Origin: Metabacillus halosaccharovorans
Lineage (GTDB): Bacteria; Bacillota; Bacilli; Bacillales; Bacillaceae
Direction of reading: 5' to 3'
Assembly (NCBI RefSeq): GCF_002019635.1
Contig: NZ_KV917371.1
Location: 372,001-436,000, forward strand
Length of the DNA stretch: 64,000 bases
The position numbers and the translations under genes are program-made. The notes under the pieces are model-generated. The model was not told the origin of the DNA. It did no database searches and saw nothing but the letters and a program-made list of their open reading frames with translations. Each line of letters starts with the position of its first letter. The first letter of the stretch is position 1. This document shows positions 33,548 to 57,716 of the stretch, in pieces.

Positions 33548-34504
33548 CTACTTATCAGATTGATTGCTTTTTATATAATAGATCCGATCCTTTGTATTAC
33601 CTGTAAATGGATAATGCAGTTTCTGTAACACTCTTTTCGCACTTGAACTGGATTTTATGTGAAGAAATGATCGAACTTCCCGATTACTTATACGCTCAGA
33701 AAAAAGAAGCTTATAATCAGTCAGAGCTTTAGTATGTGCATTTTTTGATTTTTGCCCGCATTTTTGGCATGCCCAAAAGCCAAACGTTTTCATCAAGGGA
33801 ATGGTTTCACAAAATGGACATTGAACACCTGTTATTATCTCAGACTTTAATAGTTGATAGTGTTCTATAATTGAAACATCATTTTCAGTATGAGAATCAG
33901 TGATTCTGGCTGAGAGTCTATTGATACTTTGTTTTTTCAGCTTTATCTCTTTGTATTTATTTTCTAGGTGTTGGAATTTACTTGGAATTCTTGCAGCTTG
34001 GAGTATTAATGAATTAGAAGATTTTAAAATTGTAGAAGGATTACTGAGGACAACAAATCCTATACAGGGTATATTGGGTATTTTTTGTTCTTTTAACCAA
34101 AGACTAAAATGATCTTGCTGACGCCTAACTTGTATCAATGGACTAAGAAATCCTTCCTCTTTTCCATCCAATGTGCGAATCATCTGATCAGTTTCCTCAT
34201 TTATATAAATCGATCCAGCTATGTTCTTAACTTCTAAAACACATGCAAATGAAGGAGTTATAATTAGTGTATCCATTTGAAAGTAGTGCTTGCGATCAAG
34301 AAGTCTAACATTGTGGAAAATAAGATACTCTTCCTTTAAGTAACTGAGAAAATAGTCAATAGATTTTTCCCCGTTGTAGCCAGCAAGGCTTTTTTTGTAA
34401 TCTCGTTCAATTTTTGGGTACAGTTTATGTATTTTGGGCAGTCTTCGCAGCAATGCTTCTTGCTTTTGAAGAAACAATGGCTTCAGCCTTTCTTTCATAA
34501 TCAA
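33548..34504 (-). CDS. NERD-domain nuclease-like protein with zinc ribbon and C-terminal HTH (copy 1)
   Basis: A 318-residue protein. A NERD (nuclease-related) domain occupies residues about 40-160: AGYNGEKSIDYFLS, then HYFQMDTLIITP and VLEVKNIAGSIY, which give the G-E, D and E-x-K residues of a PD-(D/E)XK nuclease. A zinc ribbon (CPFC...ACQKCGQKSK, two C-x2-C pairs) lies near residue 235. The C-terminal 50 residues (ISNREVRSFLHIKSSSSAKRVLQKL) look like a winged helix. The start is a TTG at 34504 (MIMKERLKPL), 9 nt after AAGGAG; it aligns with MIVKERKKPL of the paralogue at 56540-57517. The upstream ATG abuts the ribosome site. A 114-nt repeat array lies directly upstream. Function unknown; sequence-specific DNA cleavage or binding is my inference. 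Confidence 0.85.
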   Translation of the reverse strand: MIMKERLKPLFLQKQEALLRRLPKIHKLYPKIERDYKKSLAGYNGEKSIDYFLSYLKEEYLIFHNVRLLDRKHYFQMDTLIITPSFACVLEVKNIAGSIYINEETDQMIRTLDGKEEGFLSPLIQVRRQQDHFSLWLKEQKIPNIPCIGFVVLSNPSTILKSSNSLILQAARIPSKFQHLENKYKEIKLKKQSINRLSARITDSHTENDVSIIEHYQLLKSEIITGVQCPFCETIPLMKTFGFWACQKCGQKSKNAHTKALTDYKLLFSERISNREVRSFLHIKSSSSAKRVLQKLHYPFTGNTKDRIYYIKSNQSDK

Positions 34505-34688
34505 AACAATCATCTCCTTATTTTTTATTCGGGGTAATATTCGTTATCTTGATTAGTAATTCCTCTAATATGTTTCACTATTTTAATATTCTAGTAAAAG
34601 TTTGGATTATTAGTGGTTATTTATTCTCTATTATTAACTCCAAACGGTTATTAAACTGCTCTTATATATATATCTCATCATTTCTACT

Positions 34689-35637
34689 CCCCTAATTGAG
34701 TCACCTTTCCTATTTATTCGACCACTTCTGTGATTCTTTCAACCACTCTCTAGCATTATTCAACCACTTTTCTTCTTTTTTCAACCAATTCACTTTCTCC
34801 CCTCATCAATTGAGCCACTTTCCCCATTTATTCGACCACTTCTCTGATTCTTTCACCCACTCTCTAGCATTATTCAACCACTTTTCTTCTTGTTTCAACC
34901 AATTCACTTTCTCCCCTCATCAATTGAGCCACTTTCTCCATTTATTCGACCACTTCTCTGATTCTTTCACCCACTCTCTAGCATTATTCAACCACTTTTC
35001 TTCTTGTTTCAACCAATTCACTTTCTCCCCTCATCAATTGAGCCACTTTCTCCATTTATTCGACCACTTCTCTGATTCTTTCACCCACTCTCTAGCATTA
35101 TTCAACCACTTTTCTTCTTGTTTCAACCAATTCACTTTCTCCCCTCATCAATTGAGCCACTTTCCCCATTTATTCGACCACTTCTCTGATTCTTTCAACC
35201 ACTCTCTAGCATTATTCAACCACTTTTCTTCTTTTTTCAACCAATTCACTTTCTTCCTTACCTAATTAAGCCACATTTTCCATTTATTCGACCACTTCTA
35301 TGATTCTTCCAACCACTCTCTAGCATTATTCAACCACTTTTCTTCTTTTTTCAACCAATTCACTTTCTCCCCTCATCAATTGAGCCACTTTCCCCATTTA
35401 TTCGACCACTTCTATGATTCTTTCAACCACTCTCTAGCATTATTCAACCACTTTTCTTCTTTTTTCAACCAATTCACTTTCTCCCCTACCTAATTAAGCC
35501 ACATTTTCCATTTATTCGACCACCTATGATTCTTTCAACCACTCTCCGGCATTATTCAACCACTTTTCTTCTTTTTTCAACCAATTCACTTTTCTCCTTT
35601 CCAATCAAGTCAACTAACCAATTCACCCACTCTGAAC
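34689..35637. repeat. Array of eight 114-nt repeats built from 21-nt words
   Basis: The word TTCGACCAC recurs at 34717, 34831, 34945, 35059, 35173, 35287, 35401 and 35515, every 114 nt without exception. Inside each unit related words (TTCGACCAC, TTCAMCCAC, TTCAACCAC, TTCAACCAA, TTGAGCCAC) are spaced 21, 21, 21, 30 and 21 nt. Copies differ by scattered substitutions and the last has a 3-nt loss. Because 21, 30 and 114 are multiples of three, a fortuitous 189-codon ORF (34696-35265) runs through it; it has no ribosome site and I do not call it a gene. The array starts about 185 bp upstream of the NERD gene and ends at the left end of the IS element. Confidence 0.93.
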
Positions 35638-35639
35638 TG

Positions 35640-35679
35640 CACCCCAAAAGTTAGAGTAAAGAATCTAACTTTTGGGGTG
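35640..35679 (+). terminator. Hairpin at the left end of the IS
   Basis: CACCCCAAAAGTTAGA, 8-nt loop, TCTAACTTTTGGGGTG is a perfect 16-bp stem that includes the left inverted repeat. TTTTATT and then the orfA start codon follow. It should stop read-in transcription and hide the orfA start, keeping transposase low when the element is inserted behind an active promoter. Confidence 0.75.
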
Positions 35680-35687
35680 TTTTATTA

Positions 35688-36254
35688 ATGTCTAGATATG
35701 ATGAAAAATTTAAGCTTATGGTAGTGAAAGAATATCAAGAAGGACAACTTGGATATAAACTGTTAGCTAAAAAACATTACATTAAGTCACATAAGCAAAT
35801 CATTAATTGGGTGAAAAATTACGAGAAGTTTGGACCTGAAGGGTTAATGAGGAAAAAGCAGAACAAAACATATTCTGTTCAATTCAAGCTGGATGTTATA
35901 AGCTTTATGGAAAGAACAGGATCTTCAGTAATCGACACAGCCCTGGAGTTTGGGCTAACAAATCCTCCTATGATAACTGCGTGGAAGAAAGCCTTTTTGG
36001 AGGGTGGTGCTGTGTCTCTGGATAGACCGAAAGGACGGCCACCTATGTCTGATAAAGCTAAGAATAAAGAAAGTAAAAAAACAATTCAAGATAAAGAAAT
36101 GACCTACGAACAAAAGTTGGAGAGAGAAAACGAGCTTCTTCGGTTAGAGGTAGAATACTTAAAAAAGTTACAAGCTTTTCAGATGAATCCGGAAGGTTAT
36201 CTCGAAAAGCACAGGGGGCATTATCGTTTGAACTCAAAGAAAAGTTCAAACTAA
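35688..36254 (+). CDS. IS3-family transposase OrfA (two helix-turn-helix domains)
   Basis: A 188-residue DNA-binding half of the transposase. Two HTH modules are visible: FKLMVVKEYQEGQLGYKLLAKKHYI near residue 8 and FKLDVISFMERTGSSVIDTALEFGL near residue 66, followed by a basic PKGRPP segment. A leucine-zipper-like helix (ERENELLRLEVEYLKKLQ) follows near residue 145. The slippery heptamer A-AAA-AAG at 36161-36167 lies in this helix; a -1 shift there enters the orfB frame to give the fused transposase. Confidence 0.92.
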   Translation: MSRYDEKFKLMVVKEYQEGQLGYKLLAKKHYIKSHKQIINWVKNYEKFGPEGLMRKKQNKTYSVQFKLDVISFMERTGSSVIDTALEFGLTNPPMITAWKKAFLEGGAVSLDRPKGRPPMSDKAKNKESKKTIQDKEMTYEQKLERENELLRLEVEYLKKLQAFQMNPEGYLEKHRGHYRLNSKKSSN

Positions 36255-36304
36255 AAGACGTTCTAAAAATAGTAGGAATTCCGGAATCTTCCTACCATTA
36301 CCAC

Positions 36305-37078
36305 ATGAAAATGATGATGAAGGAGAATCCCAATCAGGAACTTGAAGAATGTATTCAATCCATATTTGAGGATCATGAGGGTAACTATGGGTATCGTCGT
36401 ATCTATTTGAACTTAAAGCAACGTGGTTTGATAATTAATCACAAGAAGGTACAGCGCATAATGAAAAAACTTGGGCTCAAATGTGATAAATTCAGTAGAA
36501 AAACACGTAAGTATAGTTCTTATAAAGGAACTGTTGGAACAATTGCCAAGAACCGCATTAACCGTCGTTTTCACACAAGTTTGTGTCATCAAAAATTAAC
36601 AACAGATATCACAGAATTCAAGTGCTCAGATGGTAAACTTTATTTTAATCCAATCATGGATATGTTCAATAGTGAGATTGTTTCGTATGGGATAGGTATG
36701 CGACCAAACTTAGAATTGGCCATAAAACCTCTCGAAGAAGCTTTGGAAATTGTAAAAGAATCAAAGTACAGAACCACTATTCATTCCGATCAGGGCTGGC
36801 ATTATCAACATAAGAAATGGACAAAGACCCTAAAGAAACATAAGGTGTTCCAGAGTATGTCACGAAAGGGAAACTGTTTAGATAATTCACCGATGGAAAA
36901 CTTTTTCGGATTAATAAAACAGGAAATGTATTATGGGGAAGCAGCCTGCTCATTTGAAGAATTAAAAAAGAGAATTGAAGAATATATCATTTATTATAAT
37001 AACAAGCGCATAAAGCAAAAATTGGCAGGCATGAGTCCGGTTCAATTCCGTATCCATACCAGCCAATTAGCCGCTTAA
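36305..37078 (+). CDS. IS3-family transposase OrfB (DDE integrase catalytic domain)
   Basis: The coordinates are those from the first ATG, but the frame is open from the slippery site at 36161, and the natural product is an OrfAB fusion over 35688-37078. The extension encodes KAQGALSFELKEKFKLKDVL and SSYHYH, as in IS150-type OrfB. The HTH_21 segment GNYGYRRIYLNLKQRG precedes the catalytic core: first Asp in TTDITEFKC, second Asp in IHSDQGWHY, Glu in SPMENFFGLIKQE. The C-terminal IIYYNNKRIKQKLAGMSPVQFR is a family hallmark. All DDE residues are present. Confidence 0.93.
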   Translation: MKMMMKENPNQELEECIQSIFEDHEGNYGYRRIYLNLKQRGLIINHKKVQRIMKKLGLKCDKFSRKTRKYSSYKGTVGTIAKNRINRRFHTSLCHQKLTTDITEFKCSDGKLYFNPIMDMFNSEIVSYGIGMRPNLELAIKPLEEALEIVKESKYRTTIHSDQGWHYQHKKWTKTLKKHKVFQSMSRKGNCLDNSPMENFFGLIKQEMYYGEAACSFEELKKRIEEYIIYYNNKRIKQKLAGMSPVQFRIHTSQLAA

Positions 37079-37120
37079 TATAAAACTCTAACTTTTAGGG
37101 GTCACCACACTCCCCTACAA

Positions 37121-56539: not shown

Positions 56540-57517
56540 TTAAAATTCTCTTATTTTGGTAAGATCATATTTTCGTCCTTTATTCTCTCCTACATATGGA
56601 ATATCCATTGATTTTAGCAATCTTTTTGCTGTGTCCGCTGATTGGAGATTCAAAAAGTCCCGCAATTGACTATTGGTTATTGTGGAATTGAATAGCAATC
56701 TATATTCATTTATTGCTTGTAGATGAGCCTGTTTACTTTTCATTTTGCAAACTGGACAAGCCCAGTAACCGTGATACCTCTTCATGCCAATATATTTGCA
56801 TGAAGAACACATTACTCCTTTCCGAATGTCATTTTTTGTTAATTGAAACTTTTCGAAAATACTTTGATCTTGTTCAAGGTGACCCTTTAAGAGGGACCGT
56901 GCTGCTTTTTTCATCCCTTTAGAATTTAGTATTTCTGGTGATTTTGATTTTTCGAGTAGAAATAGCTTTTCAGGGAGTTCTTCCTTACGGATAACTTGTT
57001 GACTAATATGAAGGCTTTTTTTGGAAGTACGGATAATTGATTGAGGATTGCTGACCACAACATAGGAGGTAATGGGCATTTGCTTGAGGCGGTGCTTTTC
57101 CAGCCATCTCTTTAACTGCTGTTCCTGTCTTTTTAACTGTGTTAAAGGATAAGAATAAGCACGCTCTTTTCCATTGTGGGTGGTTTGAATAAGTTGCTTA
57201 AAATCATGATCAAAGTAAAGCGTACCTGAAATGTTTTTAACCTCAAGGACAATAAAATGGCTTTTTGTTAGGAGCAGTGTATCAACTTGAAAGAAGTACG
57301 TATTGTCTTTCAAGCGCAAATCGTGAAAAATCAGGTAATTTTTTTCATCCAAAAAGCTTAAAGGATAATCTAATGAAGTTTCTCCCCTATATCCAGCCTC
57401 TCTTTTTTTAAGTTCTTCTGTTATCTTCGGGATTTCAGGATGATGAGGAGAAATTCTGTCTAATAATGCATGTAATTTAAGGATCATAAGAGGTTTTTTG
57501 CGTTCTTTGACAATCAT
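56540..57517 (-). CDS. NERD-domain nuclease-like protein with zinc ribbon and C-terminal HTH (copy 2)
   Basis: A 325-residue paralogue of the NERD protein at 33548-34504, with the same three parts in the same order. The NERD domain has AGYRGETSLDYPLS, YFFQVDTLLLTK and IVLEVKNISGTLYF, supplying G-E, D and E-x-K. The zinc ribbon CSSCKYIGMKRYHGYWACPVCKMKSK gives two C-x2-C pairs. The C-terminus ITNSQLRDFLNLQSADTAKRLLKSM resembles a winged helix. GGAGTG stands before the ATG. A 20-nt-period array with a different word lies about 90 bp upstream. The function of NERD proteins in Bacillus is not established; the pairing with arrays suggests sequence-specific DNA interaction (inference). Confidence 0.85.
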   Translation of the reverse strand: MIVKERKKPLMILKLHALLDRISPHHPEIPKITEELKKREAGYRGETSLDYPLSFLDEKNYLIFHDLRLKDNTYFFQVDTLLLTKSHFIVLEVKNISGTLYFDHDFKQLIQTTHNGKERAYSYPLTQLKRQEQQLKRWLEKHRLKQMPITSYVVVSNPQSIIRTSKKSLHISQQVIRKEELPEKLFLLEKSKSPEILNSKGMKKAARSLLKGHLEQDQSIFEKFQLTKNDIRKGVMCSSCKYIGMKRYHGYWACPVCKMKSKQAHLQAINEYRLLFNSTITNSQLRDFLNLQSADTAKRLLKSMDIPYVGENKGRKYDLTKIREF

Positions 57518-57606
57518 AGCATCACTCCAATGGATGTTTTCACCTAATTAAGTTCTCTATTTTTATAAATATCCCTTTCTCTGGTTTAAATTTATTTAAA
57601 TACATC

Positions 57607-57697
57607 TATATCAGCGATTTCAGAGATATATCGGCGATCTATAATTTATATCAGCGAAATTGAACATATATCGGCGAGAAGCCGAATAAATCAGCGG
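57607..57697. repeat. Array of TATATCRGCGA words at exact 20-nt steps
   Basis: TATATCAGCGA, TATATCGGCGA, TATATCAGCGA, TATATCGGCGA and TAAATCAGCGG begin at 57607, 57627, 57647, 57667 and 57687, exactly 20 nt apart. A and G alternate at the variable position in the five copies. The 9-nt spacers are unrelated. It lies directly upstream of the second NERD gene and shares no word with the array of the first. Confidence 0.9.
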
Positions 57698-57716
57698 AAA
57701 CAACAACCACCGCCAT

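Follow-up and report, generated by a model that had tools for sequence, protein, structure and literature searches.

We analyzed a window of 64,000 nucleotides from Metabacillus halosaccharovorans (contig NZ_KV917371.1, positions 372,001 to 436,000) and give positions below as those of the window. The features discussed here are the following:

33548 to 34513, minus strand: gene for a 321-aa protein with a NERD domain, four cysteines (Cys4, zinc-ribbon-like), and a probable winged helix (ORF, Pfam, conservation in homologs)
34539 to 34564, minus strand: candidate sigma-H-like promoter (AGGAATT, 14 bases, CGAAT), inferred from sequence
34694 to 35597, minus strand: word array, 7.9 units of 114 nt (TRF, word scan, spacing)
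35637 to 37110, plus strand: IS3-type insertion with transposase ORFs at 35688 to 36254 and 36305 to 37078, adjoining the far end of the array
56540 to 57517, minus strand: second NERD paralog, 325 aa, about 40% identical to the first (sequence comparison)
57600 to 57700, minus strand: array of the second paralog, with TCGCYGATATA words at 57677, 57657, 57637, and 57617 (word scan)

The first array, found by TRF with a period of 114 nt, 7.9 copies, and 94% matches, ends 180 nt from the start of the NERD gene at 33548 to 34513. The first-pass annotation had described it as eight units of exactly 114 nt, which is nearly right: a 19-base word (0 matches in 100 shuffles) occurs eight times, with six of the seven steps at exactly 114 nt, but the last step is 112 nt. 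Each unit holds five words, separated by steps of 21, 21, 21, 21, and 30 nt. The words are AAGTGGTYGAATAA-like in the direction of the gene and follow each other at 21-nt steps (TTCRACCACTT on the plus strand, or TTCRACCACT-like). The small array of the second paralog is built from a different word at 20-nt steps, versus 21 nt in the first array. Judged by eye, reading frames do not stay open through arrays whose units are 20 or 115 nt long, and we therefore set aside the idea that arrays are coding sequence. The IS3-type element is a neighbor of the array and lies outside the system; it starts about 30 nt past the last recognizable word.

The protein encoded next to the array matches the Pfam NERD family (PF08378) with an E value of 2.4e-19 and 70.3 bits, against a cut-off of 22.1. 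Its four cysteines are directly visible, with a weak Pfam zinc-ribbon match (E value of 0.034), and the C-terminal part probably forms a winged helix, judging from sequence. Across 42 full-length homologs, E49, D81, and K96 occurred in all 42 and E94 in 41, while C232, C235, C249, and C252 were invariant; an alignment comprised 31 sequences. The PD-(D/E)XK-type active site of the NERD-Cys4-winged-helix protein is therefore intact-looking. A search of the PDB by sequence found no solved relative (best E value of 0.27), and NCBIfam, PADLOC, and PHROGs gave weak partial matches alone, the best being PHROG 21557 (E value of 6e-12, function unknown). On viral contigs, 25 stretches fit one peptide pattern and no relative was confirmed.

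We looked into the DNA upstream of NERD homologs, following the first-pass annotation, which had tied the array to the NERD gene and proposed testing homologs for a 20- to 21-nt word period. NERD relatives, with distant NERDs included in the counts, were found in 35 of 41 genomes and, order-wide, in 127 of 159 genomes and 67 of 85 genera. A locus was called positive in the first batch when its best autocorrelation lag (lags 12 to 63, 700 nt upstream) fell in 20 to 22, 41 to 43, or 62 to 63 with a score of at least 46. This 20- to 21-nt periodicity was present in 36 of 45 NERD loci (51 tblastn matches minus six duplicate loci) and in 15 of 212 control ORFs from the same loci. The contrast is conservative, because many positive controls are neighbors of these same arrays or come from loci that were fetched for holding arrays. 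In the second, order-wide batch (L328 and L339 left out), 16 of 28 NERD loci were positive versus 2 of 22 controls; 12 loci failed the strict test, about 4 more carried arrays by eye, and 8 of the 28 were without one. A word-chain score of at least 36 was reached upstream in 46 of 69 NERD loci versus 0 of 69 shuffles, and in 14 of 18 loci of a third batch (L385 and L387 left out), where the sample is not random, some further NERD loci having been hand-picked from the list of relatives, partly in search of missing cognate words. The proposed test was thus positive in all three batches, which supports the tie between array and gene. Per gene, arrays are also far commoner before this NERD subfamily than away from NERD genes, the opposite of the equal frequency that the first-pass annotation had named as fatal to its proposal.

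The 114-nt unit did not prove general. We rejected it as an essential feature because most NERD arrays show plain 20- to 21-nt steps; it is this step that is general, and the word varies by locus (TCGCGGATA, GTTGACAGATT, GTTGCAAGATT, GGTTCAATA, TTGGACAGTAAA, TTCATGATAT, and others). One NERD subfamily is thus associated with 20- to 21-nt word arrays, and the words are locus-specific. Our impression is that words read in the direction of the gene tend to finish in an A/T-rich, ATAA-like stretch. A sister subfamily of 302 aa, with the same domain order and two CxxC motifs, is without arrays, with a chain score of 0 in all nine loci (L359 to L363, L368 to L370, and L376), and could act as a natural control.

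Arrays follow the terminator of the upstream gene and precede the promoter region of the NERD gene. Of 45 NERD upstream regions, 15 have a sigma-H-like motif, located at -48 to -61, versus 13 of 495 other windows; the candidate at 34539 to 34564 has a spacing one base longer than the class-wide pattern and therefore lies outside the 15 matches. Many arrays are preceded by a TTGTCGAA-like, two-part head motif, whose strict pattern occurs in 4 of 45 NERD upstream regions versus 0 of 491 controls. This conserved head, which resembles TTGTCGAA/TTGTCTAA, is shared by arrays that have different words (L252 to L287, e.g., L256, L257, and L269).

The array is not private to its gene: the same word occurs in many arrays far from NERD genes. 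DNA similarity placed the window word in five places of its own genome, and scanning for the word turned up one more array, about 0.9 kb long, on contig 3. These arrays, like the second NERD gene, had escaped the first-pass annotation. The arrays at about 73436 to 74329 of contig 3 and at about 2390431 and 1551480 of contig 1 have a period of 114 nt or near it, with different linkers. By eye, the genes beside the other arrays of this genome are ordinary, and none is a NERD gene. Identity between arrays was higher for words than for linkers, at 0.88 versus 0.51 between the window and the array at 2390431 of contig 1 and at 0.62 versus 0.42 in the window's least similar pairing, a difference that is partly built in, since the words served as anchors.

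We extended the search for pairs of correctly spaced words to other genomes, with counts that take in the arrays adjoining NERD genes. Of 80 genomes of the family, 6 contained the window word in such pairs, with 41 matches in total and 30 in its own genome, versus 2 for controls. Among 41 genomes, we found 93 GGTTCAA pairs in 6 genomes (control pattern, 8), 171 AGTTGNNNRATT pairs in 16 (control, 0), 328 ATCGNNGATA pairs in 14 (control, 1), 201 TCGCYGATA pairs with 20-nt steps in 10 (control, 0), and 197 ATCGCGGA pairs in 3, with 188 of these in G071 (control, 0). The word-pair scans are thus largely genome-specific. Some order-wide matches (L067, L050, and L068) look, by eye, like chance in coding DNA. 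In G065, draft contigs C12, C15, and C24 end within arrays, and array counts in draft genomes are therefore too low. A 3-word scan of named genomes was too permissive and was discarded: it gave at least 118 stretches, many with 56- or 63-nt spacing in other phyla, and these, from an inspection of L115, L149, and part of the remaining list, are probably coding repeats.

The dispersed, genome-specific arrays carry the same word as the NERD-proximal array, or a near one. Among genomes with at least five pairs, a NERD gene has the same word upstream in 3 of 4 for GGTTCAA and in 8 of 8 for AGTTGNNNRATT, the match in G053 and G058 being taken from coordinates. The NNN triplet agrees where listed (AAT/AAC in G053, G056, and G058; ATA in G057; ACA in G059 and G060, with AGA and GGA alongside; CAA in G062 and mostly in G064). 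In G071, the NERD gene at L205 is flanked on both sides by the ATCGCGGA word, and in G125, from another, distant family, a NERD gene stands beside the window's own word, TCGACCACTT, with further arrays of TCGACCACTT in the genome. There are exceptions. G054 has 32 ATCGNNGATA pairs and no intact cognate NERD gene, its array-type NERD having another word. G070 has 15 GGTTCAA and 17 TCGCYGATA pairs together with only a C-terminal NERD fragment, which is closest to L216, whose word is TCGCTGATA. This remnant (L371) spans about 70 aa, and arrays survive elsewhere in the genome; it is possible that G070 lost the protein before the repeats. Gene-proximal and dispersed arrays of the ATCGNNGATA class often disagree in the two central bases of the word: these are mostly CG versus mostly AA in G057, and mostly AA versus CT or CC in G053, G056, and G058.

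We examined the surroundings of 40 dispersed arrays, which are not a random sample, as five come from G063 and were chosen for the likeness of their arrays. Steps between words were 20 or 21 nt in 184 of 209 cases. No ORF of at least 60 aa outside the array is overlapped by 32 of the 40 arrays, and the other 8 overlap small unverified ORFs. Taking the orientation of the words as reference, the upstream neighbor is directed at the array at 28 of the 40 loci and the downstream neighbor away from it at 22. The end of an rRNA operon is found in 12 of the 40 loci, in ten of which the array lies at most 0.9 kb behind the 5S gene on the same strand. Rfam has no family at the arrays themselves; in G063, a Bacillaceae-1 RNA separates the 5S gene from the word array (L260, L261, and L263).

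In four genomes of one genus, the origin-proximal half of the chromosome holds 38 of 50 array sites (KS P value of 6e-8), and the word strand runs with replication at 40 of the 50, an agreement that gene strand bias may explain. After removal of rRNA-linked sites and of G054 sites shared with G057, 27 of 38 sites were origin-proximal and 28 of 38 ran with replication. On contig C1 of G071, where dnaA is at 4.19 Mb, no ATCGCGGA array lies at 0.80 to 2.58 Mb among the 100 of about 188 matches listed. Overall, arrays lean to gene 3' ends, to the ends of rRNA operons, and to the origin-proximal half.

Comparison of related genomes gave a view of how arrays change. An orthologous G057 locus was found for seven of eight G054 loci, and the four G054/G057 pairs compared in detail keep their words and vary in linkers and copy number. 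In four cases, orthologous gaps hold different words (L278/L319, L274/L295, L267 and L284/L316, and L273/L308, the L316 case being aligned on one flank only), with equal orientation in three of the four; sites are therefore shared and words exchanged between species. Two further candidates, L248/L313 and L266 versus L273, were not orthologous gaps once checked. None of the 40 dispersed loci showed an entire array recently copied to an unrelated site. Since orthologous arrays keep their place in two species and no such event was seen, movement, if any, is slow, and the gain or exchange of arrays in orthologous gaps is no more than an indirect sign of it. Units inside one array are often near-copies.

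We also compared words with proteins. Word distance tracks protein distance in every segment (Mantel r of 0.18 to 0.40, from 48 of 59 loci with 11 dropped and with shared descent left in), reaching 0.39 for the NERD segment and 0.39 for the C-terminal segment. The nine best columns include positions 289, 290, 291, 294, and 307, four of them in the putative recognition helix and one in the wing; the two best fall in the NERD part. The Mantel signal extends along the entire protein, and much of this correlation is therefore explained by shared descent.

We propose that these elements form a system of a nuclease and its cognate repeat, which would work like RAYT/REPIN from unrelated parts, a reading that we hold to be somewhat better than an even bet. 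Its first component would be the NERD-Cys4-winged-helix protein with its PD-(D/E)XK-type site and its second the arrays, with a 9- to 12-nt word every 20 to 21 bp, or roughly two turns of the helix. Each paralog would read its own word through its C-terminal domain, with cooperative binding along one DNA face; the array before the gene might also serve in that gene's own regulation. The nuclease domain would process DNA at or near arrays, and such processing could seed, lengthen, and homogenize arrays throughout the genome. A host role near the replication origin, in early sporulation or competence, is conceivable. A bolder version, to which we give slightly less than even confidence, is that this is an unrecognized class of nuclease-satellite systems spread through Bacillales: each paralog would read its own 6- to 7-nt address in a fixed 20- to 21-bp frame and drive the seeding, homogenization, and replacement of arrays at preferred intergenic sites (origin-near, post-terminator, and post-rRNA), genomes would switch the word together with the protein, and the system would be the cause of constant-size bacterial repeats.

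The strongest competing explanation is that the arrays organize the chromosome as dispersed anchors near the origin, as RacA does in early sporulation, with the nuclease fold being structural or rarely used. The RacA-like concentration of sites near the origin in the four genomes (38 of 50 and, in the reduced set, 27 of 38) speaks for it, the sigma-H-like motif may do so, and Subirana and Messeguer proposed, in the available text of PMC8161180, a protein that polymerizes on such DNA. However, the origin bias may reflect gene density, the position of rRNA operons, and gene strand bias, and gene strand bias by itself, at the level of B. subtilis, would already yield a strand agreement near the 40 of 50. 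The retention of active-site residues in 41 to 42 of 42 homologs and the presence of several paralogs with different words in one genome also fit anchoring poorly, and we consider it unlikely, if well worth keeping in mind.

Defense or self-recognition, an idea of the first-pass annotation in which arrays mark self DNA or titrate a nuclease that attacks DNA without, or with, the word, is suggested by the NERD domains of BREX PglW and MADS6. These models match weakly, however, far under their curated cut-offs and short of a full-length family match (38.4 versus 460 and 16.6 versus 990 bits at best), the NERD genes sit at conserved places that look mostly ordinary by eye, and the single peptide pattern on viral contigs confirmed no relative. 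SmdA, PglW, and MADS6 have the NERD domain in common with our protein and differ from it in architecture, being membrane or kinase proteins, and the part of PMC9040797 available to us reports no arrays for them. We therefore regard a defense role as improbable. We give similarly little credence to purely local autoregulation, in which the upstream array would be the gene's own operator and dispersed arrays would be neutral slippage satellites sharing words via binding or by chance. The position of arrays between terminator and promoter region suits an operator, and near-copy units suit slippage, but distant words match genome-specifically with almost no background and linkers do not, and the same gap holds different words in different species; slippage yields neither such matches nor such exchange. 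Finally, we find it very improbable that the arrays work once transcribed, as small RNAs or 3'-end elements of the kind suggested for 52-nt repeats, with NERD processing the RNA: the upstream neighbor facing the array in 28 of 40 loci and the 10 of 40 arrays within 0.9 kb behind a same-direction 5S rRNA gene would agree with it, but a 20- to 21-bp step suits double-stranded DNA better, and no Rfam family is found at the arrays.

How does the proposed nuclease and cognate-repeat system compare with known ones? The iterons of Rep-controlled replicons are direct repeats at about two helical turns that lie before the gene of a DNA-binding protein, and the NERD arrays, before the gene of a putative DNA-binding protein, resemble them. 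Unlike iteron replicons, the NERD system is chromosomal, has many sites, and is without a Rep domain, as Pfam showed no Rep initiator domain up to an E value of 1. As for CRISPR-Cas, four scanned proteins contained no Cas domain, and the intervals between words are linkers of 9 to 12 nt that are often repeated, unlike the unique spacers of CRISPR-Cas. STAR elements of Staphylococcus are likewise direct repeats scattered between genes, which lengthen and shorten at stable loci (PMC3532100), but by their description they consist of another repeat, and the available text of that paper names no protein partner.

The closest parallel in working is REPIN/RAYT, in which, according to the portions of PMC3116915 and PMC8266576 available to us, a vertically kept nuclease-type gene is flanked by its cognate repeat, the repeat is dispersed in intergenic space, and protein and repeat co-evolve. 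Here too, gene-side repeats match dispersed repeats, except in G054, in G070, and at the central bases of the ATCGNNGATA word. The parts differ, since RAYT is an HuH tyrosine transposase that acts on single-stranded palindromes, and here a NERD protein is paired with direct, non-palindromic words in a 20- to 21-nt register; one genome may also hold several NERD paralogs with different words, unlike REPIN/RAYT. Pfam found NERD and no HuH/Y1 transposase in the window protein, and the words are direct and non-palindromic in the printed sequences. Because these two defining features fail, the NERD system is not a member of REPIN/RAYT.

The repeats themselves have a precedent. In 176 Bacillus genomes, Subirana and Messeguer (2021) counted 781 tandem repeats of 20 to 21 nt and 1886 of 51 to 53 nt, which the available text describes as having a constant size, a variable sequence, and no known function or protein (PMC8161180). 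The NERD arrays fit this description of the 20- to 21-nt repeats in their step, in a sequence that varies by locus and species, and in being non-coding; the published repeats are mostly non-coding as well and carry a short within-species signal, which for B. weihaiensis (TCGCGG) is the word of G071. The differences lie in what accompanies the repeats: as far as the available text of PMC8161180 goes, no protein partner is named and no tie is drawn to a gene, to the 3' ends of genes, or to the exchange of words at orthologous gaps, and "NERD" and "nuclease" have 0 occurrences in its main text. We found no report linking NERD proteins with repeats in the literature covered, which lies mostly outside subscription journals and preprints. 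The statement of the first-pass annotation that no such system is described thus holds, within this literature, for the NERD link and not for the repeats, and the link of NERD proteins to 20- to 21-nt repeats looks new. The NERD protein offers a concrete, testable partner for the published puzzle of constant 20- to 21-nt Bacillus repeats, its dozens of paralogs provide a natural series of protein-word pairs for reading a DNA-recognition code, and the arrays are a setting in which to follow the concerted evolution of dispersed bacterial repeats.
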